This document shows, in pieces, positions 10,012-63,089 of a stretch of DNA of 64,000 nt (position 1 is the first letter of the stretch; each line of letters starts with the position of its first letter). Both the position numbers and the translations under genes were made by a program. This DNA is from Hymenobacter volaticus. Its GTDB lineage: Bacteria > Bacteroidota > Bacteroidia > Cytophagales > Hymenobacteraceae. The notes beneath the pieces are model-generated. The model did not search any database, was not told the DNA's origin, and saw nothing but the letters and a program-made list of their open reading frames with translations. Location: contig NZ_CP095061.1 of NCBI RefSeq assembly GCF_022921055.1, positions 1,279,501-1,343,500 on the forward strand, given 5' to 3'.

Positions 10012-12638
10012 ATGATGCGCCTACGTTCTTTCTGTGCTGCCAGCCTTTTGGCGGTACTGCCGCTGCTGCCGGCCTCAATTGCTTTTGCTCAAGCCCCCAA
10101 AACTTACTCGTCTTCAGAAATTCTGCTGGGTCTTAAGAAGCTCAACGTGCTAGGCTCGGCGCTGTACATGGCCGCGCACCCCGACGACGAGAATACCCGC
10201 CTGATAGGCTACCTCGCCAATGGCCGTCTGTTGGAAACCGGCTACCTGAGCTGCACCCGCGGCGACGGCGGCCAAAACCTCATCGGGCCGGAACTGCGCG
10301 AACAGCTCGGCGTGATTCGGACGCAGGAATTGCTAGCGGCCCGCCGCATCGATGGCGGCCAACAGTTCTTCACCCGGGCCAACGACTTTGGCTTCTCGAA
10401 AACCGCCGAGGAAACCTTCACTATTTGGGACAAAGAGCAAGTGCTTTCCGATATGGTGTGGGTGATTAGGCAGCGCCGTCCCGACGTGCTTATTACCCGC
10501 TTTCCGCCCGATGCTCGCGCCGGCCACGGCCACCATACTGCCTCCGCCATTCTGGCTGCCGAGGCCTTCGATGCAGCTGGCGACCCCAAACGGTTTCCCG
10601 AGCAACTGAAGTACGTGCAAGTATGGCAGCCCAAGCGCCTTTTTTGGAACACCGGTAGCTTCTTTGTGAAGGCCGGCGAAGACATGAGCGGCTACCTCAA
10701 GGTGGATGCGGGGGCTTACAATCCGCTATTAGGCCAGAGCTACGGTGAAATTGCTGCCCGTAGCCGTTCACAGCACAAAAGCCAGGGATTTGGCTCTAAC
10801 GCCACACGCGGTGAGGCGCTGGAATATCTCCAATATGTGAAAGGCGATAAGGCCAAGACCAATCCGTTCGAGGGCATTGATATGTCCTGGAATCGGGTGC
10901 CTGGCGGAACTGCTATTGGGAAAATGATAGACGAGGTGATTCGGAAGTATGACCCGGCTAATCCGTCGGCTAGCGTGGTAGGGCTATTAGCAGTTAGAAA
11001 GGAGATGGACGCTTGGGGAGTGCTATATGGGACCAAAGGCCGCACCTTGCAGCCTGGTTATGCATGGATAGAAACCAAGCAGCAAGAACTCGAAAAATTG
11101 ATTCAGGCTTGTGCCGGTTTGTACTTGGAAGCTGTAGCTACGGAAGCCAACGTCGCTTCGGGACAAACAGTGCAGGTAGCCCTCACGGCGCTAAACCGTT
11201 CACAAGCATCTGTAGGCGTAGTAAGCGTAAGCGTGAACGGCTTCAACTTGAACAACTCGGTAAATAAAGATTTACTAGAGGGCCAAACGCTGACTTTACC
11301 ACTGCAGTTGCCACTCGGTGCGCAGGTGCCCGTGTCGCAGCCTTATTGGTTGCGAGAGCCGGGCACAGTAGGTATGTATGCTATTCCTGCTAAGCTACTA
11401 GCCGTGCAAGGAGACACCTCCTTGCTTTTAGCATCTAAAGGACTACACCCTTCAAAAAATAAGAGCCAGCAAGTGGTAGTTCAGCAGCAACAGTTAGTTG
11501 GAAACCCGGAAACACCTGGTTCTCTAACTGTTGAGGTGAATACGGCCGTGCAAGGCAAACAAATTACGTATCAGATTCCCGTTCAATACAAAAGCACCGA
11601 CCCGGTGGAAGGGGAGAAGTACCGCCCGCTGGCCGTAGTGCCTCCCGTAGCCGTGAACATAGCTGGCCGGGCGTACGTCTTTGCCGAAAATCAGCCCAAG
11701 ACTGTACCAGTGACGCTGCGAGCAGGCAAGGCAGGCGTGAAAGGCACTTTGGCCTTAACATTACCTAAGGGCTGGAAAGCCGAGCCTGCTAGTATTCCGT
11801 TTGACCTAGCCAGCAAAGACGCCGAGCAAACTGTGCTGTTTCAGGTGCAGCCTAGCGCCGGTGCAGCCGAGGGCAAAACCGAGTTGCGCGCCGTAGCTAC
11901 CGTGGATGGGCAGCAATATTCGCGCGGCTATCAGGCCATCGAGTACAATCACATTCCTACGCAAACGCTGTTCCCCGAAGCAGTAGCTCCGCTCGTGAAG
12001 TTGGACCTCAAGCGCAAAGGCCAAGAAATTGGTTACCTAATGGGTGCTGGCGACGAAGTGCCCGACGCGCTCCGCCAGATCGGCTACAACGTGACGCTGC
12101 TCAAGCCCGAGGATATTACCGACCAAAACCTGCGTCGCTTTGATGCCGTGGTGCTAGGTGTGCGGGCCTACAACACCATTGATAGGCTCAAGGCCCTTCA
12201 GCCTACGTTGCTGCGCTACGTCGAAAATGGGGGCAATATGGTGGTGCAGTACGTAGTGAACCGGGGTACCGTGATGCCGCAGATCGGACCGTACCCGCTT
12301 ACCCTTTCTAGCGACCGGGTAACGGTGGAAAACGCAGCCGTTACCTTCCTGAAGCCGCAACAGCCATTGCTTAACACACCCAACAAACTAACCGCCAAGG
12401 ATTTCGAGGGTGGGTGCAGGAGCAGGGCCTTTACTATCCCTCGCAGTGGGATGCCAAGTACCAACCTGTCATCAGTAGCCACGACCCCAACGAGTCGGCT
12501 AAGGAAAGCGCCATCCTCGTTGCCGACTACGGCAAAGGTCATTATATCTACACTGGCCTCTCGCTTTTCCGGGAATTGCCCGCCGGGGTGCCCGGCGCGT
12601 ACCGCCTTTTGACAAATATGGTGTCATTGGGCAAGTAA
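10012..12638 (+). CDS. PIG-L family deacetylase, apparent frameshift
   Basis: From the ATG at 10012 the product begins with a signal peptide (cleavage near AFAQ) and has the PIG-L/LmbE zinc motif AHPDDEN (residues 55-61) and the distal histidine cluster GHGHH (171-175). This family removes N-acetyl groups from sugar substrates. A long C-terminal part of beta-rich and Rossmann-like modules follows, as in the ~850-residue Bacteroidota members. The frame breaks at 12408-12410: restoring one G there (GAG GGG TGG GTG CAG) joins it to the following frame, which continues cleanly for about 75 residues to the stop at 12638 (VSLGK), for 875 residues in total. As written, the frame would instead end at 12612 with an unrelated tail. 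A small membrane protein and a symporter follow, probably as one operon. Confidence 0.85.
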
Positions 12639-12712
12639 GCCCGACAGTTTCTCTCATTTTAAGAGAAGTTAGCTTCTTAGTTTCCAGTTCCTCGCTCTAG
12701 TTGCCCGCCTTT

Positions 12713-12844
12713 ATGCCCACCCAATCTGAAACTGAAAAGCCTCCGTTGCTGCCTTCTTGGCGGGCTTGGTACTGGCTGGTGCTCGGAGCACTGGCGGCGG
12801 AAGTAGGACTTTTCACGTATCTCACCCAGCTCTTCGCTTCATGA
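12713..12844 (+). CDS. Small single-pass membrane protein preceding symporter
   Basis: This 43-residue frame starts at the ATG at 12713 and ends in a TGA that overlaps the next gene's start as ATGA. It encodes a polar, proline-containing N-terminus (MPTQSETEKPPLLPSW) followed by one hydrophobic helix (YWLVLGALAAEVGLF) and a short tail. Its position directly upstream of an SSS-family symporter with a 4-nt overlap recalls the small membrane partners of other SSS carriers, such as YjcH with ActP and YhdT with PanF. Sequence relationship to those is not claimed. It is too short for most gene finders. Confidence 0.65.
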   Translation: MPTQSETEKPPLLPSWRAWYWLVLGALAAEVGLFTYLTQLFAS

Positions 12845-14552
12845 GCTTACTCGACTGGGTGGTGTTGGGGGCACGTTGCTCTTTATTGTGGGGTATGGCA
12901 CTTGGCGCACGCGGCGTGCCGGCCAAACCATGGATTCTTATCTGCTCGGCGACCGGCAGGCGCAGTGGTGGGGCATTGGGCTAAGCATTATTGCCACTCA
13001 GGCGTCGGCCATCACCTTTCTAAGTACGCCCGGCCAGGCCTACGATGACGGCATGCGCTTCATTCAGTTCTATTTCGGCCTACCGCTGGCCATGGTACTG
13101 ATTGCCATTTTCGCTGTCCCGATATACCAGCGGCTTCAGGTATTTACGGCCTACGAGTACTTGGAAGGCCGCTTCGATAGGCGTACCCGCACACTAGCGG
13201 CATTGCTGTTTTTGGTGCAACGGGGACTTAGCAATGGTCTTTCACTGTATGCACCGGCGTTGGTGCTGTCGGCCATTTTGGGCTGGAATATCAACCTGAC
13301 GGTTTGGTTGATTGGCGGCCTAATGATCTTCTACACCGTGGCTGGCGGCACGCAGGCCGTAGCCGTGACGCAGCAGTGGCAGGTAGGTGTCATTTTCACG
13401 GGTATGGTGGTGGCAGGCTACTTGCTGGTGCATTACCTGCCTGCTGATATGGGCTTCACAGAGGCCATGCAAGTAGCTGGAAACCAAGGCAAGCTCAACC
13501 TCGTCGATTTTCACTTCGACCCCAGTGACCGATACAATTTCTGGTCGGGCATGACGGGTGGCTTGTTTCTGGCGCTGTCCTACTTCGGCACCGACCAAAG
13601 CCAGGTGCAGCGCTACTTAGCTGGCCGCGACATTACGGAAAGCCGGCTTGGTTTGCTGATGAATGGCCTAGTGAAAGTGCCCATGCAGTTCGGTATCCTG
13701 CTTATCGGGGTGCTGCTCTTCGTGTTCTACCAATTCAATGCGCCACCGCTTACCTTCAACCGTCCGGTCCACGACCAAGTAGCCCAATCGGCAGAGCATG
13801 GCCCCAGTCTCCAAGCCCTGGAGAACAAGCACCGCCAACTGTTTGAGGCGAAGCGAGCCGCTAATACCCAATTAGTAGAGGCTCTGCGCAGCCATGATGC
13901 CGACCAACTAGCGGCTGCTCAAACACAGGTGCAAGCTTCCAACACAGCCACTCGCGCATTACGCACCGAAGCACAGGCACTTCTCAAAAAAGCGGCACCT
14001 TCTGCCGAAGCGAAAGACACCGATTATGTGTTTCTGACCTTTGTGCTGCGGTATTTGCCGCAGGGACTCGTCGGTTTGCTGATTGCAGTGGTGCTGTCGG
14101 CGGCTATGGGCTCGGCGGCTTCGGGACTTAATGCGCTGGCTTCCACTACGGTAGTTGATTTGTATCGCCCTAGCCGTCCGCACCTGAGTGGGAGCCACTG
14201 CGTACGTGCTTCACGGTGGGCTACTATTGCGTGGGGCGTGCTCGGTATTGGGTTTGCAACGTTTGCCGCCCGGCTCGAAAACCTAATTCAAGCCGTTAAC
14301 ATTCTCGGCTCCCTCTTCTATGGCACCATCTTGGGCATTTTCGTGGTGGCTTTCTTCATGAAATCCATCGGCGGCAGAGCCGTATTTTGGGCGGCTATCC
14401 TTGCTGAAATTATCGTGCTGTTGCTGTTCTGGCTGACTGATATCGGCTACTTGTGGTTCAACATCATCGGGTGCGGGTTGGTCATGCTGCTTGCCGCCGG
14501 TTACCAGCGCCTCGTGCCTTCGGCTAGTTTGCTTCAGGATGGAAAAAGCTAA
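12841..14552 (+). CDS. Sodium:solute symporter (SSS family), apparent frameshift
   Basis: The gene starts at the ATG at 12841, overlapping the stop of the small protein, and would give about 570 residues. The first ten codons (MSLLDWVVLG) are in a different frame from the rest; restoring one G in the run at 12867-12871 joins them to GTLLFIVGYGTWRTRRAG. SSS features are plain: DSYLLGDRQAQWWGIGLSII, the sodium-site helix region around TQASAITFLSTPG, and about 13 hydrophobic helices. A hydrophilic helical insert rich in Ala, Gln and Glu lies near residues 310-395. The transported solute is unknown; the upstream PIG-L deacetylase suggests an amino sugar or sugar conjugate. A strong terminator follows. 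Confidence 0.85.
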
Positions 14553-14596
14553 TGATAACTTTCCTTCGCAGGTTCTGCGTGTCGATGCTATACTAC

Positions 14597-14636
14597 ACAA
14601 AAAAGCCCTCTGCTTTATAGCAGAGGGCTTTTTTGT
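14597..14636. terminator. Bidirectional hairpin terminator
   Basis: An 18-bp perfect stem (14597-14614 with 14619-14636) has a 4-nt loop and A/T-runs at its ends. It lies between the convergent symporter and DUF2911 genes. Confidence 0.9.
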
Positions 14637-14671
14637 CAACTTCGTTGTCTACTTGAGATTAAGTAGGAAGC

Positions 14672-15556: not shown

Positions 15557-15596
15557 GAAAGGGGAAAATGAAATTGATTCGTGGTTAAAAGTAATA

Positions 15597-15620
15597 AAAC
15601 CCGCGTTGGAGCGCGGGTTT
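15597..15620 (-). terminator. Hairpin terminator after ExbD gene
   Basis: The stem AAACCCGCG/CGCGGGTTT (15597-15605 with 15612-15620) reads into TTTTATTACTTTT on the minus strand. It ends the ExbD-like transcript. Confidence 0.75.
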
Positions 15621-15653
15621 CAGTGTGATTAGGCAAGCGCAGCAAGCGAAATA

Positions 15654-16271: not shown

Positions 16272-16367
16272 AAGAGTGGAAGCTGATGATACAAGAAGTT
16301 AGACAACGATAAACTCGTTCACGTCTATATACTCCTGCGCTTGCAGCTTGACTCCGTTGTACTTGAG

Positions 16368-16898: not shown

Positions 16899-16958
16899 AA
16901 GCAGATTGGTTTGCTATATCATTCCACCGTCGGGTGAGGTGAAAAGCCATTGTACCTC

Positions 16959-20035: not shown

Positions 20036-20512
20036 TTATTCATCTTTGTTGTTCGCCTGCTCTACCTTCAGAATCTGCCCGTTGCCGAACGGCACGGGAA
20101 GGCTAATTTGCACTGGTATGGGCTGGCCCTTGCGGGTAGCGGGTTTAAAGGCCGGCAGCAGCGCCACCACCCGTAACGCCTCTGCATCTTGGGCCGGCGA
20201 CAACGACTGCGCCACCACCGGATTAGATAGACGGCCGTTGGCTTCAATCGTTGCCGTTACCAATACGTTGCCGGTAGGATTGTTGACGCCGGAAGTCTCC
20301 GGATACTTGATGTTCTGTTGAAAAAAGGCGCCCAACGCGTCGGCACCCCCCGGAAACGATGGCGCTACATCGGGTCGGTTGGAAGCGGGTCGGGCCTGCA
20401 CCTGCATCCGGCCTGCTTTCAGCTCGATGGGCTTCGATGTAGTAGGAGCAGGCTGCTGCGCGTTAGCTGCAAAGGCAAAACCTGCCAGCAAAACACAAAG
20501 GAGTCGTTTCAT
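20036..20512 (-). CDS. Periplasmic TonB C-terminal-domain protein
   Basis: This 158-residue protein has a cleavable signal peptide (LLCVLLAGFAFAANAQ) and a TonB_C domain at roughly residues 50-142. Visible landmarks are FPGGADALGAFFQQNIKYP and GNVLVTATIEANGRL followed by the DAEALRVVALLPAFKPA helix-strand. It lacks the N-terminal membrane anchor and proline-rich spacer of an energy-transducing TonB, so it is a secreted homologue. Such stand-alone domains are common in Bacteroidota and of unclear function. A good TTG/TAnnTTTG promoter lies upstream at 20638-20666. Confidence 0.85.
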   Translation of the reverse strand: MKRLLCVLLAGFAFAANAQQPAPTTSKPIELKAGRMQVQARPASNRPDVAPSFPGGADALGAFFQQNIKYPETSGVNNPTGNVLVTATIEANGRLSNPVVAQSLSPAQDAEALRVVALLPAFKPATRKGQPIPVQISLPVPFGNGQILKVEQANNKDE

Positions 20513-20669: not shown

Positions 20670-22153
20670 TTACCCAACAGGGTTCAATTCTGTAACAAGT
20701 CGAGGACGCGAAATGGCGAGCAGCCCAACAAAGGTGAGCAAGCCATTGAGAATCAAGATTTCAAAGCCAAACTCGTAGCCCCACCAAGCCTTGGAATTAG
20801 CATTGATGAAGTAGGTAAGCAGGGGCGCAATTACGCAGACCACCGGTACCAGCCGGTCATGGAGGCCGCGGCCCATAAACAGGCCGAAGGCGTAAAGCCC
20901 GAGCAATGGCCCGTAGGTATAGCCGGCCGCCTTGAACACGGCCGTAATAACGCTTTGGTCGTTGATGGCCCGGAAAATTAGGATAATCACGATGAGCACC
21001 AGCGAGAAGCCGAAGTGCGTGAGCTGCCGCACCTGCCGCTGCTTGTTTTCCTCGTACTGCTTGATGTCGAGCATGTCCACGCAGAACGAGGTGGTGAGGG
21101 CCGTGAGGGCCGAATCGGCGGAGGCGTACGTTACGGCAATGATGCCGAGGATGAATACTACGCCCGCGAAGAGCGTGAAATGGTTGGTGGCCAGCAGCGG
21201 AAACACGTTGTCGCCGATGATTTTGCCGGTGGTTGCGTTGGTAGGCAGCGCAATGCCTTTCGCAGCGGCAAATTGGTAGAGTAGCACCCCGAGCGAAAGG
21301 AAAAACACATTCACCACCACAATGGCAATGGTGAACCAGAACATATTCTTCTGTGCGTCGCCGAGGTTGCGGCAGCTTAGGTTTTTCTGCATCAAATCCT
21401 GGTCGAGGCCGGTCATCACGATGGTGATGAAAGCACCAGAAGCAAACTGCTTCCAGAAATACTTGTCGTCTTTCACGTCGGAGAAGTAGATCTGCGACAT
21501 GGCGCTTTCGCGCACGGTTTTGATCAGACCCGCAAAGCCGAGGTTCAATTCATCGGCCATCAGGTAGATACTCACGGCCACGCAAACTAGCATGGCCATG
21601 GTCTGGAAAGTATCGGTCCAGAGGATAGTTTTGAGGCCGCCGCGGAAGGTATAGAGGTAAATCAGGAAGATGCTGACCGACACGGTGACAGCAAACGGCA
21701 CGCCCAACGAATCGAAGACGGCAAATTGCAGCACGCCCGCCACCAAGAACAAGCGGAACGCGGCCCCCACGGCTCTGGAAATCAAGAAGAAAAACGCACC
21801 CGTTTTGTAGCTCCAAAACCCAAATCGTTGCTCCAGATACGTGTAAATACTTACCAGCCGCAGCCGGTAGTACATGGGCATCAGCACCGTCCCAATCACG
21901 AGGTAGCCCACGGTATAGCCCAGCACCACCGCCATATAGCTCCACGACTGCGTGGCCACCATGCCCGGAATCGAAATGAACGTGACCCCGGAAAGGGAGG
22001 TCCCAATCATAGCGAAGGCCACCATATACCAGGGGCATTGCGGTTGGCAATGAAGAACGATTCGCTCGTGGCTTTGCGCGAGGTCAGAATCGAAATGATG
22101 ATGAGAACAACAAAGTAGCCTGCAATCAGGCTCAGAATAAGGGTAGGAGACAT
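20670..22153 (-). CDS. Sodium:solute symporter (SSS family), apparent frameshift
   Basis: The natural start is the ATG at 22153 (MSPTLILSLIAGYFVVLI), but the frame breaks after ESFFIANRNAP. Restoring one base in the GGGG run at 22032-22035 (CCCC on the coding strand) gives the expected NAPWYMVAFAMIGTSLSG and a 494-residue protein. SSS features include the sodium-binding helix region SGVTFISIPGM, about 13 hydrophobic helices, and ASADSALTALTTSFCVDML. The substrate is unknown. It is a different subfamily from the symporter at 12841, lacking its hydrophilic insert. Without the correction, translation would start in an unrelated frame. Confidence 0.85.
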
Positions 22154-22271
22154 AGCAGGCCGAAAAACAGGGAGGTAAAGATACAGCCACGCTTGCAACT
22201 ACACAGCGCGGCTAAACGCAATGCCGAGCTAATCGCTAAACCACGAGGAACTCCCAATTTTGCATAGACTC

Positions 22272-23391: not shown

Positions 23392-23991
23392 CTACCAGAT
23401 ACCGCCGCCGGTTAGCCCGGGCGAGTAACCAGGATACATGCTCGACTGTCCGTTGCTGGTCCGGATGCCGCCTGATATGGTGATGTTCTCGTTTATCATG
23501 TAGTCGGCCCGTAAGCTCATGCCGGAGCCCATGTTGCCACCAAATCCAGCATAAGGGTTCACCACCATACCCCGCGGCACGGAATTCGACAGATCCTTCC
23601 ATGCGGTACCCGTCAGGGCCAGCCGCGGTGACACGGCGTATTGGGCACCCGCCTGTATGAGGTATTGGTTGGTGCCACTCCAAGCGCGAGGCGCGCCATC
23701 ACCAGCAGCGTAAGTGGTCAGGCCAGGGTTAAGACGCATGTAGGTTAAGCCCGTGAATACCGTCAGTCGGTTGCTGAGCTTGTAGCCCATCTCTGGACTA
23801 ACATACGAGGCCGACCCGTACCGGCCCGCCGTCATAAACCCAGCATTGACGCGGAAGCTTTGGCGGGGCCCTAGTACGCCAGGCAAGGTAGGCGACGACG
23901 TGGCAACACCGGCATTAGCCATAGGGGTGGTTTGAGCCGCCGCGGAGCCAGCTAGCAGCACACTTACCAGAAAAATAGAAAGACGAAGCAT
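23392..23991 (-). CDS. Predicted outer-membrane or secreted beta-rich protein
   Basis: This 199-residue protein has a signal peptide (LSIFLVSVLLAGSAAAQ). The mature part alternates aromatic and small residues in short strands rich in Gly, Tyr, Ser and Asn (SFRVNAGFMTAGRYG, LSNRLTVFTGLTYMRL, LRADYMINENITISGGIRT), as in small outer-membrane barrels. There is no terminal Phe: it ends in Trp (TGGGIW), which can also serve as a barrel C-terminal signal. I do not recognise a named family. It has its own terminator. Confidence 0.7.
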   Translation of the reverse strand: MLRLSIFLVSVLLAGSAAAQTTPMANAGVATSSPTLPGVLGPRQSFRVNAGFMTAGRYGSASYVSPEMGYKLSNRLTVFTGLTYMRLNPGLTTYAAGDGAPRAWSGTNQYLIQAGAQYAVSPRLALTGTAWKDLSNSVPRGMVVNPYAGFGGNMGSGMSLRADYMINENITISGGIRTSNGQSSMYPGYSPGLTGGGIW

Positions 23992-24155
23992 AAAACAGCG
24001 GAAAGGTCAGTTGAGGCTGATACCACAGGGAGTACACCTCCAACGCAAAGGCTGCATCAGAGGTGCATTTTCCTGAAAGATAACATAAGCGCCAAGCATT
24101 TCCAGCTTTTCCCAAGCCATCGGCTAGCCTATGCCCGTAACGCAGGCCAGTTTGT

Positions 24156-24856
24156 TTACCCTACTGCTGCGGAGGTTGCCAGAAAGGTTTCGGCGGCTTT
24201 GCGGTGAGTTTGTAGCTCAGCTAGGGCGCTGGCATTGGCGGCTTCGTAGCTGACCAGCGCCGATTGAGTTTTTTGTCGCTCTTCGGTAAGCTGTTGCTGT
24301 GTAGCGGTTAGTTGCTGTTGCTTTGCTTGCAATTGTTTGGTTAGCTCGGCAATGTCGAGGGCCAACTGCTGCTCTTGGGTCGTTAGTTGCAGCAGAGTGC
24401 TCGGGCGACGTTGTTGATTTTGATTTCACCCATTTTTTCTCGGTGCCGCTCCAGCACTTTGTTGCGGTCTGATTCCAGCACGGTTTCGTACTTAGCAGCC
24501 GAAGCCAGCAGCCCGGGCACAGTGGAGCCATTGATGGCAGCAAAAGCGTTGAAAGCTGTCTGGTAGAGCAGTTGGCCCGACATACCCGCGGCGGCCATGC
24601 TTTTCACCATTTTCATATAGGCCGCGAAGTCCTTGCCATCACCGGCCAAAAGCCCCGCAATATGGTCTACGTGGCGTTGCTCGGGCTGCGTTATGGAAGC
24701 GTTGTGGGTAGTAGGCGTGCCAGGCTGCGCCGCAACAAAAGGGGTGGGACTAGCTACTGGCTGTGCTTTGCCCGCGGTGGTTGAAGTTGCCGGAGTATCG
24801 TCGCCTTCCACAAAAAAGTCTTTGGCGGCTTTGGCTATATTATCGAAGATAGGCAT
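24156..24856 (-). CDS. Coiled-coil protein of unknown function, apparent frameshift
   Basis: Two minus-strand frames join into a 233-residue protein if one base is restored in the GGG run at 24403-24405 (CCC on the coding strand). The first part starts MPIFDNIAKAAKDFFVEGDD, has a Pro/Thr/Ala-rich linker, then a helical domain (HVDHIAGLLAGDGKDFAAYMK). After the junction come LLQLTTQEQQLALDIAELTK and a Gln-rich coiled coil with several heptads. No signal peptide or membrane helix is seen, so it is probably cytoplasmic. I do not recognise the family. Confidence 0.65.
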
Positions 24857-29069: not shown

Positions 29070-29782
29070 ATGACTAGGCATTTGCGCCGCTTACGAGCCA
29101 TTGCTATCCTTTTTCTTACCGAATTCACGGTTACGCTGGTGCTTGGCATTGCGGGGTAGTGGGGTTTTTGGCGCTAAGCCGTGAAGTCTTCGACCAGGAT
29201 GCAGCTACCTTCGATGCCGCCGCTTTCCGCTGGACGCGGCAGTTGCTCGGGCCGCGGCAGCAATGGGTGGAAGCCGTTACGTTCTTTGCCTCGCGCAATT
29301 TTATTACGGTGGCGGCCTGCCTGCTCATCAACTGGTTTCTGCTGGTACGCAAGCACCGCTGGAATTCGTTGCTCGTGCCAGTAGTAGCGCTTGGCAGCAT
29401 CACGCTCAATTTAGCGCTTAAGCAGTTTTACCAGCGTCCCCGCCCATTGCTGCCCTTGGTGTCGGCGTCGGGGCTCAGCTTCCCGAGCGGGCACGCCATG
29501 ATTTCCGCCTCGTTTTACGGCTTGCTGATCTACCTGGCGTACACCTACATCCGTAGGGCAAGTTGGCGCTGGTTGCTGATTGGCGGGTTAGTGCTGCTAA
29601 TAGCCCTCATCGGCCTGACCCGAGTTTACCTGCGTGTACACTATGCTACCGACGTGTTGGCTGGCTTTACAGCCGGGCTCGTATGGCTGATTGTGGCAAT
29701 TCCACTGCTGAAACAGCTGGAAATTCGGGCTCGCAAACCGTTGAAAATTCAAGCGCAATCAACTGAAAAACAGCCTGAATAA
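29070..29782 (+). CDS. PAP2 family phosphatase, apparent frameshift
   Basis: The start is the ATG at 29070 (MTRHLRRLRAIAILF). The frame stops after LGIAG unless one G is restored in the GGGG run at 29153-29156, which yields GVVGFLALSREVFD and a 237-residue protein. The three PAP2 motifs are complete: KQFYQRPRP, PSGH in LSFPSGHAM, and TRVYLRVHYATDV. Six membrane helices are predicted. The family dephosphorylates membrane lipids such as undecaprenyl pyrophosphate or phosphatidate. A paralogue lies at 30133-30825, on the other side of tRNA-Leu. Confidence 0.85.
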
Positions 29783-35890: not shown

Positions 35891-36990
35891 TCAGTTGCTG
35901 TCCGGGGCTTCTATTTCTGTTTCGAGAGTAGAGAGTGCTACGCCTAGTAGGCGTACCCCAAGCGGCAGCGGCATCAGGGCCGCCAGCAATTCATGGCTGA
36001 CTTGGGCTAAGAGCTCGGGCGTGCGAATGGAAGCCAAGAAGGTGCGACTCCGGGTAATCTGCCGGAAGTCGGCATATTTCACCTTGAGGGTCAAGGTGCG
36101 GCCCGCCGCACCAACGCGCTGGCTGGTCGCCCACACGGATTCTAGGATTGGTTGGAGCCCGGCCAGTAACTCCTCGTGCGTTAGTAAGTCGTGCTCGAAG
36201 GTATTTTCCGAGCCTATGGATTTGCGTACTCGATCGGCCACTACCGGGCGGTGGTCTTCGGCGCGGGCAATGTGGTAGTAGTGCGTACCGGCCTTGCCGA
36301 AATGCTGCCGCAGAAACGCCTCCGTTTGCTGGCGCAGGTCTAAGCCCGTAAAAATGCCGAGCTGGTTTAGCCGGGCCACCGTGGCCGGCCCAATGCCGTG
36401 AAACTGCCCAACCGTGAGCGTTTCTACAAATGCCAATCCTTCGTGCGGCTTGATTACGAATTGTCCGTTGGGCTTACGGTAATCGGACGCCAGCTTGGCC
36501 AGGAATTTATTATAGGAAATGCCCGCCGAAGCGGTTAGTTGTGTTTCGGCCAAGATCCGAGCCCTAATTTCCTGCGCTAGCTGCGTGGCCGAACTGATTT
36601 GCTTTAGGTTGTGCGTCACGTCGAGGTAGGCTTCGTCAAGCGACAAAGGCTCGATCAGCGGCGTGTATTCGGCAAAAATGGCCCGTATCTGCCGCGAAAC
36701 TTCCTTGTATACTTCGAAGCGCGGCTTCACAAACACCAAGTTTGGGCACTTGCGCAACGCCACCGACGAGGCCATGGCTGAGCGCACGCCAAACTGCCGC
36801 GCCTCATAGCTGGCCGCTGCTACCACCCCCGCTGGCGCGAGCCGCCTACGGCCACTGGTCGGCCGCGTAGAGCAGGCTGGTCGCGCTGTTCCACCGAGGC
36901 ATAGAAAGCATCCATGTCCAGATGAATAATCTTGCGCTGTAGTTCCTGCTCCACTTTTGTTGCTCCTGAAAACACGAAGATAAAGCGCAT
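35891..36990 (-). CDS. dinB: DNA polymerase IV (Y family), apparent frameshift
   Basis: Correcting one base in the CCCCC run at 36826-36830 (GGGGG on the coding strand) joins the N-terminus [17 protein letters not shown] with [18 protein letters not shown]. The result is a 366-residue Y-family polymerase. Catalytic acidic residues are in DMDAFY and SLDEAYLDV; the helix-hairpin-helix thumb is visible as [16 protein letters not shown]. Pol IV performs error-prone translesion synthesis. The ATG at 36990 gives an unusual lead (MRFIFVFSG); a GTG at 36954 preceded by AGGAG may be the true start. Without the correction the catalytic N-terminus would be lost. Confidence 0.88.
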
Positions 36991-37135
36991 AGCCGGGACC
37001 TGCGCCTTCCACAAAGGCAGATTTTAACAACGGACGCTTGCTCGTAATTCAGCCTGAATTGATAACGCATCAGGCACAAAAAAGCCCCCACCCAGAGAAG
37101 GGCAGAGGCCAAGATTTGACAGTAAGAGCCAGGTG

Positions 37136-38512
37136 CTAATGTGACTGCTGGACCAAGCTGCTATCAACTTCCGCTAAGCCTTCAATGGGCTCGGGAGCTA
37201 CATAGTTGTCAACGAATTCACCTTCCCAGCGGGCCACTACGGCCGTAGCCAGGCAGTTGCCGATTACGTTGACCGCAGTCCGGGCCATGTCCATCAAGGC
37301 ATCAATGCCCAGGATGATGAACACCGGCCAGGAAGGCAAGTTGAACGAAGCCACCGTAGCCAGCAAAATCACGAGGGACGCCCGCGGTACGCCCGCTACA
37401 CCCTTAGAAGTAAGCATCAGCGTAAACACCATCACGAGCTGCTGCCCAAACGACAAATCAACGCCCGCGGCCTGCGCCACAAACACTGCCGCCAACGACA
37501 AGTAAAGCGTAGTGCCATCGAGGTTGAAGGAGTAGCCAGTTGGCATCACAAAAGCCACAATACGGCGCGGAACCCCGATGCCTTCCATGGCTTCCATAGC
37601 CCGCGGCAACGCGGCCTCCGACGACGTGGTAGCAAAGGCGATACTCACAGGTTCGGCAATGGCTTGTACAAAACGCTTAACCGGAATGCGCATCAGCAAC
37701 GCCACGGGCAGCAACACCAGCAGCAAGAACGCCAGCAGCGCCGCATAGAGCGTAAGCAGCAGATAAAAAGCATTCTTAAGCGGCTCGAAACCCATCTTAC
37801 CCACGGTGTACGCCAAGGCGCCACCCACCCCAATTGGGGCAAAGAACATGACTACGTTGGTGAATTTAAACATCACCTCCGACAAGCTGTCGATTATTTC
37901 CAGCATCGGGCGGCGCTTGTTCTGATGCACCATCGCCAGCCCGATAGCGAAGATGATGGCAAATACCACCACTTGCAAAACCTGCCCTTCGGCCACCGAT
38001 TTGGCAATGTTCTCAGGGAAGATGTGCAGGATAATATCCGAAGTCGTTTGCTTCACGGGCTCCAGCTTCTCGGCTTCGGCGGCTACACCCGCTTGGCTGA
38101 TGCCGACCCCAGCCTTGGTGAGGTTAATGGCCGCCAACCCGATAAAAAGGGCAAACGTGGTAATAACCTCGAAGTACACCAGGGCCTTGAGGCCCATTTT
38201 GCCCACTTGCTTTAAGTCGGCGTGGCCAGCAATGCCTACCACCAGCGTGGCAAATACCAGCGGCGCAATAATAGTTTTGACGAGCCGCAAGAACACGTCA
38301 CTAAGCACCTTCAGGTTTACGGCAAATTCCGGGAAGTCATTGCCAATTTCGGCCCCAACAAACATGCTAACCACAATCCAGAACGTGAGGGAGCGGCGTT
38401 GAACACCATAGGCCACAAAGGCAGCCAGAAACAACCAGCGCGCTGCTCGAGCCACTGCGGGGTCGAGGGAAAGTAGCTGATAATTGGAGAGAACAGTAAG
38501 CAACACAGCCAC
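37136..38512 (-). CDS. Dicarboxylate/amino acid:cation symporter (DAACS/SLC1)
   Basis: This 458-residue carrier has the SLC1 hallmarks: the first hairpin serine motif TTSSEAALPRAM, the NMDGT-like motif as FNLDGTTLY, and NVIGNCLATAVVARWEG in the last helix. Eight helices and two re-entrant loops fit. It would import C4-dicarboxylates, glutamate or aspartate with sodium or protons. A start as GTG at 38512 is used. If one C is restored at 38534-38536 the gene would instead begin at the ATG at 38556 with MKFSRLVPVVLVLALVAVLL, a more typical N-terminus, and the TATCTTTG motif at 38590-38597 would lie suitably upstream. Confidence 0.88.
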   Translation of the reverse strand: MAVLLTVLSNYQLLSLDPAVARAARWLFLAAFVAYGVQRRSLTFWIVVSMFVGAEIGNDFPEFAVNLKVLSDVFLRLVKTIIAPLVFATLVVGIAGHADLKQVGKMGLKALVYFEVITTFALFIGLAAINLTKAGVGISQAGVAAEAEKLEPVKQTTSDIILHIFPENIAKSVAEGQVLQVVVFAIIFAIGLAMVHQNKRRPMLEIIDSLSEVMFKFTNVVMFFAPIGVGGALAYTVGKMGFEPLKNAFYLLLTLYAALLAFLLLVLLPVALLMRIPVKRFVQAIAEPVSIAFATTSSEAALPRAMEAMEGIGVPRRIVAFVMPTGYSFNLDGTTLYLSLAAVFVAQAAGVDLSFGQQLVMVFTLMLTSKGVAGVPRASLVILLATVASFNLPSWPVFIILGIDALMDMARTAVNVIGNCLATAVVARWEGEFVDNYVAPEPIEGLAEVDSSLVQQSH

Positions 38513-38556
38513 TAGGGCCAGGACTAGAACGACGGGACAAGTCGCGAAAACTTCAT

Positions 38557-38882: not shown

Positions 38883-39897
38883 ATGCTTGTCTGGACGCTC
38901 ACCCCGCTCATCTTACCGTTGCGCTTCACTTGGAAAATCTCGCGCAACGCCTCTACCACTAAAACCAACCTGATAGTTCGGGTGCAGGATTCGAAAGGAG
39001 GACCCGTCGGAATGGGGAGGCAGCTCCCAATATTCGCTACGGCGAAACTCCCGAAGCCTTGCAGCTAGAGTTCACAGCTTTGCTGCATGCGGGCTTAGAT
39101 AGAATACGGACTGAGGGTGAGTTGCAGGAGTTTTTGGCGGCCCATCCACCGGCACACGCCTTGCGCTTTGCCATCGAATCGGCGTTTGTGCAGTGGGCCG
39201 CAACTGAGGCGGGTCAGCCGGTCTGGCAATGGCTAGGCGCCCCCGAACCAGCCCGCGCCGTACCCACGGCCTTTACGCTGCCTATCATGGCCCCCGGCGA
39301 AGTAGCCGAGTTTGTGCGAGAGCAGCAGATGGCCCGCTTTCAGATTCTGAAAGTGAAAGTGAACGAGGAAAGCGGCTACGACCTATTGCGCGAAATCACG
39401 CGCCTGCTGCCCGGCCGGCCACTCATCATCGACGGCAACGAAGCTTGGAAGGATGCCGATGCTGTGCTGACTTTTGTGGAGCGAGTGTCACCTTTGCCCG
39501 GCTTGCAGGTGCGCCTACTCGAGCAGCCCCTGCCCGCCACTCACGCCACCGACTACCAGTATATGCGTAGCCGCTCGCCTTGGCCGCTCTTCGCCGATGA
39601 ATCCGTAACGGACTCAGCCGATTTCGAAGCCATAGCGCAGCAGTTTCACGGCGTAAACATGAAGCTTATGAAGGCAGGTGGCTACCGTAACGGGCTACGT
39701 ATTTTGCGCGAAACCCGAGCGTATGGCCTCCAAACCATGATGGGGTGCATGGTCGAAACTTCGTTGGCAATCTGGGGGCACTGCAAATCAGTGGCCTAGC
39801 CGAAATCTGCGACTTAGATGGCTTACTTATCGTTCAGAATGAGCCATTCGGCTTAGTTCGCGAAGAAGAGGGGCTCTTGCACCATCTGGACACATAA
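38883..39897 (+). CDS. Dipeptide epimerase (enolase superfamily), two apparent frameshifts
   Basis: Three frames join into one 338-residue enzyme if one G is restored at 39014-39017 and another at 39774-39778. The first correction gives GMGEAAPNIRYGETPEALQ, and the second restores GALQISGLAEICDLDGLLI through to the stop at 39895-39897. Enolase-superfamily residues are visible: KVKVN with the first catalytic Lys pair, metal ligands in IDGNEAW, LLEQPLP and FADES, and the second Lys in MKLMKAGG. The DLDG motif fits L-Ala-D/L-Glu epimerases of peptidoglycan recycling. Uncorrected, no frame would encode an active enzyme. Confidence 0.82.
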
Positions 39898-52726: not shown

Positions 52727-54148
52727 CTAATGTGGCACTGCCACCCGTACGGAGTCTACCCCAAACCAGGTAGCCAGCCGTGTGTTCACCCCGAACCCGT
52801 ACATGGTAGACAAGTCGTCGGGGGGCATGAAAGTGAGGCGGTTGGTGAGAGGTGGCAGTGGAGGAACTTCAAGGGGAACATGAGGCGTGCGGCTAGCTTG
52901 GCGCAGTGCCCTGAATCGGTATTGCCACTGACGCGCATACTCCGGGGCGTCGTATCGTAAATCGAGGTAGGCGCGGCCACTTGGTATTAGCAGTATGATA
53001 AACAACATGAGGCCAAGTAGCATCCGTACTGCCGGTGAGGCTACGGGTACCGGGGTGGATGGCATACTGGCCCAAGCAGCTACTATCCACCCAAGCAGCC
53101 ACCACCACACCAAGGCATTGGTGGCGCGTGTAAGCAAAGGTACGCGGGCCCACATAAGAGCATAAGGAATAGTAGCCAGTACTACACCGCCTACCAGTAC
53201 GGCAGCACCTAGTAGAAGGGGCAAGCGCAGGCCCGGCGGCCGAGCAGGCATGATGCGCACTGCCAGCGGTCCAAGGATTAGCGTCAGGGCAGGTATCACT
53301 AAAAAAGCTGGCTCTACGAATAAATAGCGTAGCAACACGACCAAGCGCGAAGCAGCTTCCCAAACGGAACTAGCTGGTACCAGGCCGCTATCCAACTGTT
53401 GGCGTCCGGTGTTGCCGGGAGCTAGCAATGATAGAGTGCCAAATATGAGTAGCAGTGCCCCTAAAATAGACCATACACGTAGGCTACGCCATTGCCGCCG
53501 GTAGGCACTGAGCCCCGCCGCTACCAACATTATCCAGCCCAATAGCACGAGTGTAAGTTCATTGGAACCGGCGGCGGCTGTTACACTCAAAACAGCCACA
53601 AGACCCCAGGCCACACGAATTGTCCGGTTTGAAGTGTGGTGCCACCGCATCACAGCCAGTGGTACCACAACTATCAGCCAAATGGAAATCTGATAGACAA
53701 TAAAGTCAGTGAAGAAATAAAGAGATGAAAATTTATTGGGTGCCAGAGCTGTGTAAAGCAACGATATTCCTACAGCAAGCAGGGTCGATTCTCTTCGTCG
53801 TAGTTGTGAGCTTGTTAGGGTTCGAATAGCGAAATATAATACCCCAATCCGCAGCAATTGGCTAATGACGGCCGTTAGTTGTACGCCAGCTAGCCACCGG
53901 TAGCTTAGCGGGTTAGCAACAAATAGCAAGCAGTTGGTAAAGTAGCGGCCTGACCAATGCTGGAATAAATATGGCTGTGCCTTCCAAACTCCATAAGTTA
54001 GCGCAACTGTGGAAGTTGAAAAGTCATCTAAGCAAGGCTGAATGTATAGGCAAAGGATAAGAAAAGGTAGCCATGCCACCCCCATCCCAAATGCCAAAAG
54101 CTCTATTCGATAACGGACGATCCAACGAAGCAAACGCGAATACCACAT
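52727..54148 (-). CDS. Polytopic membrane protein (DUF6056-like)
   Basis: This 473-residue protein has about 11 hydrophobic helices. The start of the periplasmic loop PCLDDFSTSTVAL and the following HWSGRYFTNCLL resemble DUF6056 and related glucosyltransferase-like membrane proteins, with an Asp-Asp pair after the first helix as in GT-C folds. Functional assignment as a polyprenyl-linked sugar transferase is only a suggestion. The last 80 residues are soluble. It precedes the M1-like peptidase gene by 28 bp. Confidence 0.75.
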   Translation of the reverse strand: MWYSRLLRWIVRYRIELLAFGMGVAWLPFLILCLYIQPCLDDFSTSTVALTYGVWKAQPYLFQHWSGRYFTNCLLFVANPLSYRWLAGVQLTAVISQLLRIGVLYFAIRTLTSSQLRRRESTLLAVGISLLYTALAPNKFSSLYFFTDFIVYQISIWLIVVVPLAVMRWHHTSNRTIRVAWGLVAVLSVTAAAGSNELTLVLLGWIMLVAAGLSAYRRQWRSLRVWSILGALLLIFGTLSLLAPGNTGRQQLDSGLVPASSVWEAASRLVVLLRYLFVEPAFLVIPALTLILGPLAVRIMPARPPGLRLPLLLGAAVLVGGVVLATIPYALMWARVPLLTRATNALVWWWLLGWIVAAWASMPSTPVPVASPAVRMLLGLMLFIILLIPSGRAYLDLRYDAPEYARQWQYRFRALRQASRTPHVPLEVPPLPPLTNRLTFMPPDDLSTMYGFGVNTRLATWFGVDSVRVAVPH

Positions 54149-56136: not shown

Positions 56137-56159
56137 GAAGGAGCCGGTGCAAGGAAATA

Positions 56160-56189: not shown

Positions 56190-56274
56190 TTCAGGAAAAT
56201 GTTATGTTTGGTAGGTCAACCGTAAATCCGCGTCAGCGTACAGACGAGCATTCAACAGTCGACCTTCTATTTCT

Positions 56275-57513
56275 ATGGCGTGGTACTTGCAAAGTGCTAT
56301 TGCCGCCGCCTGCTCCTCGTTCTCACACACCTCTTATAGCCCACCCGTGCCCACACTCGACGCCCCTATCTGGATTCTGCTAGCGCATGGCCTTACGTTG
56401 CTGCTAGCCCTGCTGGCAGTGGTTGCTACTCTCTTGCCCCTGTTGCGTCAAACGGCATGGTGGATTCGCGTATTCGACTTTCCCCGCTTACAAATTGTGG
56501 GCGTGACGCTGCTAGTAGTGGCCGCAGCGTGGCTGCTCGGCTGGCACCAACTGCCGGGTTGGGCGGGGCTAGGGCTAATGACAGCACTCGGCGCGGTGGT
56601 GCTTTATCAAACGGTACGGATTTCGCCTTATACTCCCATCGTGAAAAAGCAGGTGGGCGATAGTACCCTGAAAGACGGGCAACGGCACATAAGCCTAGCC
56701 GTGATGAACGTGCTACAGTACAACAAGCACAGCGACATGGCATTACGTGTGCTTCAGCAAGTTGACCCCGACGTTATCATGGCAGTTGAGACCGACGAGT
56801 GGTGGCATGGCGAGTTGAAACCCTTGGAAAAAACACACCCGTATACCTGCCACGAACCCCTCGACAACACCTACGGGCTGCTGTTCTTTTCCCGGCTGCC
56901 TCTGGAAGGATGCCAAGTGAAATACCTGCTCGACGATGATGTGCCCTCGCTGCACACGCGCATCCAGTTGCCCGACGGCAAAACGTGGGTGCGCCTCTAC
57001 GGCCTACATCCCAAGCCGCCAGCACCCGCCGAATCTAAAACCAGTACCAAGCGCGATGCGGAATTGCTACTGGTAGGCAAGGAAATAAACGAGCACGAAG
57101 AGCCCACCATTGTTTTTGGGGACATGAACGATGTAGCCTGGTCGCACACGTCTGAATTGTTTCGGCGGATTAGTGGGCTCATGGACCCAAGGGTAGGCAG
57201 AGGCCTGCTTCCCACATTTCACGCCGATTACTTGGCTCTGCGCTGGCCCCTCGACCACGTATTTGTGTCGCCGGACTTCAAGGTCGATGACATTCAGCGT
57301 TTGCCTTACGTCGGCTCCGACCATTTTCCCATCTACATCAAGCTTAGCTACGAGCCTCAAGATAAGAAGGTGCAAGAAGAAAATGCCGAGCAAGCCGACG
57401 CCGACGACTACCAAGAAGCCAACGAAAAAATCCGGGAAGGCTTCGAAGAAGAAGTAGAGGAAGAATTGGAAGAGGCAACCACTGCTGAAGAGGGGAAAAA
57501 GGTGACAAGCTAA
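56275..57513 (+). CDS. Membrane-anchored endonuclease/exonuclease/phosphatase (EEP) family protein
   Basis: This 412-residue protein has two or three N-terminal hydrophobic helices (about residues 33-57 and 70-110) followed by an EEP domain. EEP landmarks are MNVLQYNKHSDMALRVLQ, a metal Glu in MAVETDEWW, a central VRLYGLHPKPP, IVFGDMNDVAWS, and the terminal GSDHFPIYIKL. These residues form the usual catalytic and metal sites, so it may hydrolyse phosphodiesters of nucleic acids or lipids, probably on the periplasmic side. The last 50 residues are strongly acidic (Glu-rich). The first 25 residues before the helix are unusual, so the start at 56275 is not certain. Confidence 0.82.
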   Translation: MAWYLQSAIAAACSSFSHTSYSPPVPTLDAPIWILLAHGLTLLLALLAVVATLLPLLRQTAWWIRVFDFPRLQIVGVTLLVVAAAWLLGWHQLPGWAGLGLMTALGAVVLYQTVRISPYTPIVKKQVGDSTLKDGQRHISLAVMNVLQYNKHSDMALRVLQQVDPDVIMAVETDEWWHGELKPLEKTHPYTCHEPLDNTYGLLFFSRLPLEGCQVKYLLDDDVPSLHTRIQLPDGKTWVRLYGLHPKPPAPAESKTSTKRDAELLLVGKEINEHEEPTIVFGDMNDVAWSHTSELFRRISGLMDPRVGRGLLPTFHADYLALRWPLDHVFVSPDFKVDDIQRLPYVGSDHFPIYIKLSYEPQDKKVQEENAEQADADDYQEANEKIREGFEEEVEEELEEATTAEEGKKVTS

Positions 57514-57533
57514 CCTTTCCCTTCACGCAATAA

Positions 57534-57568
57534 AAAAGGGCCGGAAGCTATATGCTTCCGGCCCTTTT
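57534..57568. terminator. Bidirectional hairpin terminator
   Basis: A perfect 15-bp stem AAAAGGGCCGGAAGC/GCTTCCGGCCCTTTT with a 5-nt loop lies between the convergent EEP and dnaK genes. Confidence 0.9.
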
Positions 57569-57588
57569 CACTTAGGTAAGAGCAACTA

Positions 57589-59535: not shown

Positions 59536-59641
59536 TTGGATGGTTGTTATGTAGTAAGTTGAGGTGTCAGGTTGTAGCTGCGATTCATTCGCACGGGGGA
59601 ATTACAAGGCTCGTACCAGCCCCGGCAAATGCCTTTATTTG

Positions 59642-59654
59642 TGACAGATTGTCA
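59642..59654 (-). promoter_or_regulatory. TGACA-N3-TGTCA palindrome upstream of dnaK
   Basis: The palindrome lies about 107-119 nt before the dnaK ATG. Its role is unknown; an operator or heat-shock element is possible. No TAnnTTTG motif is clear beside it. Confidence 0.35.
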
Positions 59655-59767
59655 TTTTTGAAGGTGCTCCGTGTGAACTGTCCGACGGACTGACTTCTAC
59701 AATTCTTTAAGACGCAGGATATTCTGCCAGGCGGACAGGCTATAGAGCGACTAGTGCAAGCGCCGTA

Positions 59768-60727
59768 TTATTGTTTCGCTAAAAACCCCGCCACCGTCTG
59801 CTCCCACAGTTGCTTGTTTTTGCGCCAATAGGGCTCGTGGCCGGAATCTGGAAAGTCCTGACGTTGCTTGGGGCCGCGCAGATTCGCGGAAATGGCATCA
59901 GTTTCTTGGCGCGTCACGCGCGGGTCAGCTTCGCCCCACATGAGCAGGGTAGGCGTGCTGATGTTGGTGGCGAAGTGCGTGGCATCTAAATCAAACGCCC
60001 AAAAGTTGTTTTGCACCCCACCCCAAAACACGAGCAGGTTGGCCAGCGGGAATGGCGGCACGTGCATGGATTGGAAACGGTTGGAGGCAGTTTCAAGCAT
60101 GCTGCCGTAGGGACACTCCACGAGGTTGGCCGTTGGGCGCACTCCTAGTTCGCTTTCAGCCCGCAGAATAGCCTCGGCGCCCATGGAGTTGCCGTAAAGC
60201 ATTACCGGACCTGGTCGGCGTTGCAGCCAGCGCGTCACGGCGGCCACGTCGGCGGCTTCATGGTGGCCAACAGTGCAGATGTTGCCCGTAGAGCCGCCGT
60301 TACCGGCAAAGTCGGTAAGCAGCACGGAGTAACCGAGGCGCCGGAAGTAGGCGGCTTCGGTCAGGAGCTTGCTTTTACAACTGGCGTAGCCATGAAACAG
60401 CGCCACCGTGCCTCGCGGGCGCGGCACCGGACCATACCACGCCTCCAGACGCCCATTGGCACTGTTGAGGTATAGCGTACGGTACGGGAAAGCCGGAACG
60501 GCCTGATTGCGGGGCTTAGGGTTTTTGATTCCCGTGAGCAAAATACCAACTTTCTGCAGCGGCGTTAGTTGCTCGGGGTTATCGGTGTGGGCGCCTGCTT
60601 CCGTGGTAAAATGCGTGAAGCGCCAAGCATGGAAAAACGCCACCGCGTTTACAAGCACAAACCCCAACGCCGCCAGCAACAACAGTTGCCGGAAGCGCCA
60701 GGGTTTGCGCGAAGAAACTTTATGCAT
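59768..60727 (-). CDS. Membrane-anchored alpha/beta hydrolase
   Basis: This 319-residue protein has an N-terminal membrane anchor (FRQLLLLAALGFVLVNAVAFF) and an alpha/beta-hydrolase fold. The oxyanion region is ALFHGYASCKSK, the nucleophile elbow YGNSMGAEA with catalytic Ser (around residue 178), a later Asp in WGEADPRV, and His in DSGHEPYW. This BAAT/serine aminopeptidase-like set is complete. The substrate is unknown. Its ATG overlaps the stop of the RluE-like gene (TAATG), so the two are translationally coupled. Confidence 0.88.
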   Translation of the reverse strand: MHKVSSRKPWRFRQLLLLAALGFVLVNAVAFFHAWRFTHFTTEAGAHTDNPEQLTPLQKVGILLTGIKNPKPRNQAVPAFPYRTLYLNSANGRLEAWYGPVPRPRGTVALFHGYASCKSKLLTEAAYFRRLGYSVLLTDFAGNGGSTGNICTVGHHEAADVAAVTRWLQRRPGPVMLYGNSMGAEAILRAESELGVRPTANLVECPYGSMLETASNRFQSMHVPPFPLANLLVFWGGVQNNFWAFDLDATHFATNISTPTLLMWGEADPRVTRQETDAISANLRGPKQRQDFPDSGHEPYWRKNKQLWEQTVAGFLAKQ

Positions 60728-61686
60728 TAGCCGCGTCCGTTACGGCCGCTGCCAGTTGGGCCTGGCTTACGTCCGGCGCCACCCCGGCTTTCTGGACCCG
60801 CACTGCCACGTCCGGCCGACTTAGGGCCAGGCTTGCTGCCGGTTTTGCCGGGCGTTGTTGGTTTGCCACCAACTGGTTTGCCAGTAGGTGTCGCCTTAAA
60901 AGTGCCGCCACTGCTATTGCGGCCCGAGCCCCGGGTGCCAGCCGAGCGAGTATCGCCGCCCGTGGCTTTTGCGTTGCTGGCTCCGCCAAAACCGCCGCGG
61001 CTGTAACCGCCCGCACTGTTCTTTCCTGGCTTGGCGCTAGCCGGACGAATGCCGCCGGGCCAGAAGGTCTCGGATTTGCCGGGAGTTTTGAAAGTGCCAG
61101 CTGCCGCCGTTTGAGCAGCCATGTCTTCTTTCAGCGTCTGTACTTCCGGGTCGGTTAGCTCGCGCCATTTGCCGGGAGCTAGGTTTTCCACGCGCAAGTC
61201 GGCGATGCCTACGCGCACGAGGCGCAGGGTGGGGAAGCCCACGGCGGCCGTCATCTTGCGCACTTGGCGGTTCATGCCCTGCGAAATTGTTATTTCAATC
61301 CAACTGGTGGGGATATTGGCCCGAAAGCGAACGGGCTTGCTGCGAGGCCATAGCTCCGTGTCGTTGGGTAGCAAACGGGCTTCGGCGGGGGAGGTGAAGC
61401 CGCTCTTGATGTCTACGCCGCGGCGCAGTGTTTCGAGAGCTTCTTCAGTGGGGATGCCTTCCACTTGCACCCAATAGGTCTTGGCTACCTTGAAACGAGG
61501 CTCGGAAAGACGGTGCTGAAGCTGCTTGTCGTCAGTGAGGAGCACGAGGCCCTCCGAGTCGAAATCCAGCCGCCCGACTGGATAAATATTAGGTATGGCC
61601 ACGAAGTCCTTGAGCGTGGCGCGGCCTTGCTCATCGGTGAATTGCGTGAGGACTTCGTAGGGTTTGTTGACCAGAATGTAGCGCAT
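60727..61686 (-). CDS. rluE: RluE-like 23S rRNA pseudouridine synthase with long disordered tail
   Basis: This 319-residue protein has a pseudouridine synthase domain in the first ~190 residues. It begins LVNKPYEVLTQFTDEQGR, as in E. coli RluE, and carries the catalytic Asp in GRLDFDSEGLVLLT, the VQVEGIPTEEALETLRRGV block, and GMNRQVRKMTAAVGFPTLRL. RluE acts on the 23S rRNA peptidyl-transferase region. It has no S4 domain. The last 115 residues are Gly, Lys, Ser, Pro and Arg repeats, likely disordered and RNA-binding. The stop overlaps the next gene's start. A TACCTTTG motif ends 5 nt before the ATG. Confidence 0.88.
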   Translation of the reverse strand: MRYILVNKPYEVLTQFTDEQGRATLKDFVAIPNIYPVGRLDFDSEGLVLLTDDKQLQHRLSEPRFKVAKTYWVQVEGIPTEEALETLRRGVDIKSGFTSPAEARLLPNDTELWPRSKPVRFRANIPTSWIEITISQGMNRQVRKMTAAVGFPTLRLVRVGIADLRVENLAPGKWRELTDPEVQTLKEDMAAQTAAAGTFKTPGKSETFWPGGIRPASAKPGKNSAGGYSRGGFGGASNAKATGGDTRSAGTRGSGRNSSGGTFKATPTGKPVGGKPTTPGKTGSKPGPKSAGRGSAGPESRGGAGRKPGPTGSGRNGRG

Positions 61687-61690
61687 GACA

Positions 61691-61698
61691 CAAAGGTA
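61691..61698 (-). promoter_or_regulatory. -7 element (TACCTTTG) abutting RluE-like gene start
   Basis: TACCTTTG on the minus strand ends 5 nt before the ATG, so the mRNA may be leaderless. No -33 TTG was seen at normal spacing. Confidence 0.4.
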
Positions 61699-61763
61699 CG
61701 CGGCTTGCGGGCGTTTTGCTGTTTTCCGGTAATTTCCAGTTGGTGGCCGTTGCCATACCAGCC

Positions 61764-61860
61764 GTCATGCTGAGCGCAGCCGAAGCATCTCGCTATTGTG
61801 GTAAAACTAATAGCATTGCAACGTCAGCACGCGAGATGCTTCAGCTGCGCTCAGCATGAC
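61764..61860. repeat. Long palindromic repeat (GTCATGCTGAGC family)
   Basis: Two 30-nt arms (61764-61793 and 61831-61860) are complementary at 29 of 30 positions around a 37-nt spacer. The arms start with GTCATGCTGAGC and contain GAAGCATCTCG. It occupies the gap between the RluE-like and MBL genes. Confidence 0.85.
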
Positions 61861-61956
61861 AGTACTTCTACAACTTTAGCATGTGAGTCGTGATGCTTCA
61901 ATCCCGGCTGCGCTTGCGCATAGCAGGGCCCTTCGATCAACCTTATGCGCTTCTGC

Positions 61957-63089
61957 TTACTGTACTTGCCGCCACCACGGTGAGCTAGGCAAGGGCCCGC
62001 TGCCTACCACGACAGGTTCGCCGAGCCTAGGAGTGGTGACGGGCATCTGCAACCGCATGGCCGCGGCGGTGGCCCGCTCGATGGGGTCGGTCCAAGCGTG
62101 GTTAGCTTCGGTGAAAGCCGCCCAATGAACGGGTAGCATCACCTTTCCGCGTACGTCAACGGCGGCTTGCACGCTCTGCTCGGGCATCATATGGATTTGG
62201 GACCATTGCTGGTCATATTGGCCGCATTCTATTAAGGCCAGATCAAAGGGACCGTGGGCGGCACCAATAGCCTTAAAGTGCGGGCTATACCCCCCGTCGC
62301 CGCTATAGAAAACCCGCTTGGAATCCGATTTAAGCACCCACGAGCTCCATAGTGTGGAATTGCGGTTGGTGAGGCCGCGGCCCGAGAAGTGGCGGCTGGG
62401 CGTGCACACCACCGTGAGGCCGGGCAGCTTGGCTTCGTCGCCCCAATTCATTTCGGTGATGCGCTCCGGCGCTACGCCCCACTTGCGCAGGTGCGGACCA
62501 ATGCCCAAGGGCACGTAGAAGTGAGCGACTTTGCTTTTGATGCGCCGGATGGTTTGGTAGTCGAGGTGGTCGTAGTGGTCGTGCGAAATAAGCACGGCGT
62601 CGATGGGCGGTAACTGCTCGGGCGTGATGGGCAGCGTGGCATTGTAGCGGGGAGGGGTTAGCCAGGCGCTGGGTCCAAGGTCAATGCTGAGCATGGGGTC
62701 AAACAAGATGTTTTTGCCGGCCAATTCCACCAAGCTAGCCGAGTGGCCAAACCACGTCACGCGCAACAAGTCCGGCGATTTGCGCACGATGCTGAGCGAA
62801 TCTAGTTGCTGCATGGGCAGCGGGCCCAGTGGGCGTGCGTTGGGTTCTTTGTGGAACAGAAACTTCCACAGCACCTTCACCATGCTGCCCCCGTCAGCTC
62901 AACGGTCGGGACCAAGTTCACAAACTCGCCGTCCTGGTAGTGCCCCGACTTGGCGTATACCTGTTTGTCGGCCTTGGTGGGCTTGCCACCAAACTCGGGG
63001 CTGATGCTCATAAAAGCTACCGCAGCCACTAGTAAAACGCCAACCATGCTGCTCGTTGCCATGAAAAAGGTCTTTACTGGTTTCCTCAT
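61957..63089 (-). CDS. MBL-fold metallo-hydrolase, apparent frameshift
   Basis: Two frames join into a 377-residue protein if one base is restored in the CCCCC run at 62888-62892 (GGGGG on the coding strand). The N-terminus is MRKPVKTFFMATSSMVGVLL, a membrane anchor, then ISPEFGGKPTKADKQVYAKS, the expected lead for this family. The second frame carries the metal motif SHDHYDHLD, RVTWFGHSASLVEL, SRHFSGRG and YSGDGGYSPHF. It resembles NAPE-phospholipase D-like hydrolases. Its ATG overlaps the stop of the upstream gene as ATGA, so the pair is probably one operon. Confidence 0.85.

Follow-up and report, generated by a model that had tools for sequence, protein, structure and literature searches.

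Nine genes in one stretch of a Hymenobacter chromosome are each interrupted at a run of G or C, which raises the question of whether they are broken in the living cell or only in the assembly. The window, by which we mean the whole 64,000-nucleotide stretch that was analysed, covers positions 1,279,501-1,343,500 of a 5.31-Mb contig, within a genome of 7.13 Mb that is assembled as ten contigs and is 97.3% complete. The original prediction held that ten single-base losses, arising through sequencing or assembly error, split these genes, and that the genes are probably intact. This reading is borne out by unbroken genes in relatives, by losses that run in one direction, are confined to G and C and depend on run length, by selection that is not relaxed, and by housekeeping genes that are split in the same way. 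We put at about 97% the probability that all ten losses arose as consensus errors in the assembly, the nine genes being very probably intact in the cell; that the absent bases exist in the living DNA is something we infer from comparison.

The best matches of the window lie in Hymenobacter. Its nearest relative, Hymenobacter sp. YC55, has 98% of residues in common with it in the dicarboxylate carrier and is collinear across nearly the whole window at approximately 82-90% DNA identity; the YC55 reference is a SPAdes assembly. H. norwichensis DSM 15439 aligns with the window at approximately 69-88% DNA identity. The ten runs predicted to be short are all present in the sequence, and at each of them, or within a few bases of it, the window has one base fewer than YC55, which splits the following nine genes:

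12408..12410, plus strand: GGG in a PIG-L/NPCBM_assoc gene (frame 9943-12612); frame change near the C-terminus, seen with the YC55 and H. norwichensis proteins
12867..12871, plus strand: GGGGG in the first sodium:solute symporter (frame 12876-14552), at its start; seen in the YC55 DNA alignment
22032..22035, minus strand: GGGG inside the second sodium:solute symporter (frame 20670-22190); one base fewer than in YC55
24403..24405, minus strand: GGG in a gene that matches no Pfam family (frames 24383-24856 and 24217-24543); short by one base, whose exact position is soft
29153..29156, plus strand: GGGG early in a PAP2 phosphatase gene (frame 29159-29782); short by one base
36826..36830, minus strand: CCCCC early in dinB (IMS polymerase, frame 35891-37030); short by one base
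38534..38536, minus strand: GGG early in a dicarboxylate carrier gene (SDF, frame 37136-38512); short by one base
39014..39017, plus strand: GGGG, first break of an enolase-superfamily epimerase; seen in the YC55 comparison
39774..39778, plus strand: GGGGG, second break of the same enolase-superfamily epimerase (middle frame 39059-39799, MR_MLE_C)
62888..62892, minus strand: CCCCC in a gene for a Lactamase_B_2-superfamily metallo-hydrolase (frame 61957-62883); frame change not seen with H. norwichensis proteins

Placing YC55 proteins on the window genome revealed a frame change at nine of the ten sites. The tenth, at 12867-12871 near the symporter start, is visible in the YC55 DNA alignment alone, as a gap of one base, the protein test having missed it because only about 10 residues lie upstream. 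With H. norwichensis proteins, frame changes were found independently at eight sites, the exceptions being 12867 and 62888. At 12408 and 24403 the aligner sets the gap a few bases away, which leaves the exact base soft. The carrier site, of which the original prediction had been less sure, was confirmed: YC55 residues 1-37 (95%) and 37-502 (98%) match in two different frames. Altogether 51 YC55 genes were mapped within the window and a frame change was called in 10 of them, comprising 8 already predicted and 2 extra. Both extra changes were judged to lie upstream of a start: the one near 23995 falls immediately ahead of a minus-strand frame whose ATG is at 23991, and for the one near 56310 the H. 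norwichensis match begins only at 56340, a judgement that is less sure because the open frame begins at 56275. The start of this gene (56275-57513) is itself uncertain, as the frame upstream of approximately 56340 differs among YC55, the window and H. norwichensis.

Comparison of the nine genes with close relatives at the protein level, the check that had been proposed, found uninterrupted genes. H. norwichensis proteins placed on YC55 yielded one frame change in 59 genes, which belongs to the query because the same change appears on the window genome, while YC55 proteins placed on H. norwichensis yielded two in 63 genes, both early in the frame. Among loci of named relatives (YC55 included), frame changes were found in 0/80 for the carrier, 0/77 for the epimerase, 0/17 for PAP2 and 0/3 for dinB. 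In 2 of 38 other genomes (G005 and G010) the carrier is split in two, at approximately residues 224-245 and not at the site seen in the window. We read these two splits as assembly errors also, a reading shown only for G010, which has run-collapse errors of its own and five Cs in the carrier gene where Hymenobacter sp. BT188 has six. In G005 (C1:2055001-2175000) frame changes occur at two places among 17 mapped genes, close to G/C runs. These carriers bear on a quite different explanation, namely that the frames are joined during expression by programmed frameshifting or transcript slippage, or are switched by phase variation, for which one-base runs are the usual sites and a carrier that is also split in two relatives might seem apt. 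However, the site is not conserved, the carriers of G005 and G010 break elsewhere in the gene, and the named relatives are unbroken in all four genes tested; moreover, the runs are mostly 3-5 long (one is of 8), they show losses only, and the wider set of affected genes includes housekeeping genes of no common function. We therefore give this explanation next to no credence.

The losses extend well beyond the window. Over 484 kb of the chromosome, 257 YC55 genes (98,539 residues) were mapped and 47 raw frame changes were called, from which we dropped four for which the window genome had no gap of a single base, one site doubled through a paralogue, and a further five sites, two with the gap upstream of a probable start and three with several indels in the alignment. 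The 37 distinct losses kept fall in 35 genes, and all 37 lie at a G/C run of at least 3 bases, although one, which in window numbering falls near 166544, adjoins a T run and has its G run within four bases. Such runs make up 7.45% of covered coding bases, giving a binomial P of 8.5e-25 even with this share tripled beforehand to allow for alignment slack. The site at 12867, which this protein test did not catch, is not among the 37; under a looser rule, with no pruning, the count for this stretch came to 44 net one-base losses. The loss rate is 37 per 291,674 covered coding bases (0.013%). Against these 37 losses, the 484-kb comparison found no gene with a clean single-base gain well within it; DNA alignment over 124 kb showed a few uncompensated single-base gains, all within approximately 45 codons of where a YC55 frame begins, a region in which the true start is uncertain.

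The frequency of loss follows the nature and length of the run. At observed lengths of 3, 4 and 5, losses were found in 11 of 5397 (0.2%), 16 of 1126 (1.4%) and 7 of 192 (3.6%) G/C runs, respectively, rates that are approximate because they were computed before pruning (40 sites, three later dropped or double). None of 13 runs of six was affected and one run of eight was, so that the evidence for a rise with length comes from lengths 3-5; among A/T runs of at least 3 bases, a single loss was found in 7252. Run densities across the first 402 kb of the stretch, relative to 420 kb of YC55, point the same way, falling through 0.95, 0.92, 0.83, 0.57 and 0.10 for G/C runs of 3 to 7 bases, with no depletion of A/T runs of the same lengths (1.03-1.12). 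In our reading, the reads, probably long ones without short-read correction, under-count G/C runs, and one base is then missing from the consensus at a small fraction of these runs, more often at longer ones.

Several points stand against reading the losses as error. Completeness is still 97.3%, G/C runs of six survive intact, and tRNA synthetase matches fall within long open frames, so that the error is partial. Intact runs of six had already been noted in the original prediction, which correctly described a six-G run but placed it at 52817-52822, three bases away from its actual position at 52820-52825; three further G/C runs of six lie in the window at 20346, 54633 and 62290. It might also be supposed that the artefact stems from base modification at a motif and not from run length alone, and C runs followed by GA are indeed over-represented among the 37 losses (11 versus 4.4 expected). 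As 26 of the 37 lie in other contexts and the rate tracks run length, we regard this variant as unlikely, and the losses would be an artefact in either case. A motif effect in place of run length was tried and rejected, since only C-then-GA stands out and its excess is too weak. This excess may perhaps reflect a polymerase or modification context.

Were the genes decaying as dispensable, interrupted frames would be expected, but so would relaxed constraint and a mixture of lesions. Instead, omega was 0.065 for the 37 genes flagged as split versus 0.058 for 213 intact genes (P = 0.46), with equal dS (0.606 and 0.603, respectively), and the lesions are of a single type. In-frame stops on the best-matching pieces number 24, and are confined to within 33 residues of either end of a YC55 frame or to four short frames (137-165 residues) that have weak matches and may not be genes. 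Ordinary decay is thus as improbable as frameshifting or phase variation, and we consider both the least credible of the readings weighed here.

The identity of the split genes argues further for consensus error. Splits are spread over the genome, as represented by its largest contig, and include housekeeping genes. When ten proteins of the split set were scanned, four passed model cut-offs, these being ftsA, carB, sdhA (succinate dehydrogenase/fumarate reductase flavoprotein) and purine-nucleoside phosphorylase; RarA-like, LolD-like and manganese-catalase-like proteins scored below the cut-offs, and three others matched no model. Some 3 Mb away, recA occupies two frames whose junction is near a GGGG run, and a translation-GTPase gene at 956.8 kb is split likewise (both placed by eye). 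The mismatch-repair gene mutS is also split, at a CCCC run at approximately 4681.5 kb of the contig (locus L167, approximately 6540-6560; placed by eye). Genes such as ftsA and carB are needed for life, and a living cell could hardly bear the splits seen in recA, mutS, ftsA, carB and sdhA.

A broken mutS nevertheless invites the view that the losses are real, having accumulated through slippage in a mismatch-repair mutator: its own lesion is at a C run, as a mutator would predict, and runs are favoured by slippage. Such a strain, however, would have to have gathered 37 losses without a clean in-gene gain and with A/T runs spared, to have lost ftsA, carB, sdhA and recA, and to carry breaks in about one gene in seven of the stretch tested. 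We judge this to be very improbable, and since mutS is itself among the split genes, any claim of a mutator made from this assembly is unsafe. A shade less probable again is that a mutS-broken Hymenobacter truly carries losses at hundreds of G/C runs, including those of ftsA and recA, and survives through read-through by ribosome or polymerase.

Errors of the kind favoured here, loss of single bases from the consensus, have precedents among long-read assemblies. The report on Streptomyces leeuwenhoekii (PMC4487206) describes a PacBio chromosome into which 2934 bases were put, most differences from Illumina data being omissions of C or G in runs of at least three that shift frames. The two genomes are thus alike in the omission of a single C or G from such runs, but differ in extent, the 0.013% found here (obtained from comparison with YC55) standing against 0.038% corrections in PMC4487206. 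In nanopore assemblies, according to the Kastor study (PMC12007338), homopolymer deletions split genes and raise pseudogene counts, and genes of the window genome are split in like manner. In contrast to the window genome, where A/T runs are almost untouched, the MinION assembly described there was affected most commonly at A/T runs, with approximately half as many cases at G/C runs. The signature seen in the window matches the PacBio case and not the MinION case, and PacBio continuous long reads, which fit best, were probably the platform.

The finding is almost certainly a warning about data quality and holds no new biology. By our own count, about one gene in seven of the stretch tested is split (35/257), and would be classed from this assembly as a pseudogene or as shortened; claims of gene loss, pangenomes and annotation transfers based on it would be wrong. 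The set of tests applied here (run-length dependence, direction, housekeeping genes and omega) requires just one close relative and works without reads.

Run-collapse errors were also observed in a second genome, G010, where 26 distinct net one-base losses were counted in 180 kb (C1:256001-436000). Twenty of these lie at runs of five Cs with a G and an A/T-rich stretch before them, and 20 of 47 such runs are affected. This context corresponds to a hyper-abundant dispersed motif, roughly an A/T-rich stretch followed by GCCCCCCA(G), the exact form AAWWGCCCCCCA having 1155 copies in G010 (loci L152-L160) versus 0-14 in each of 38 other genomes; as a control, the reversed pattern has 0 copies in G010. 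We found no paper on the motif in Hymenobacter in a literature search. It occurs on both strands, and 75 of 110 G010 sites are inside open reading frames of at least 100 residues. The motif recalls HIP1 of cyanobacteria, although it is not palindromic. A looser form of the motif is absent from 121 of 150 loci of at least 8 kb, but reaches 19 copies (89 per 100 kb) in one 21-kb locus of H. roseosalivarius (L015) and 18 copies (84 per 100 kb) in one 21-kb locus of Hymenobacter sp. BT188 (L006), and by eye many of the sites look common to these two loci.
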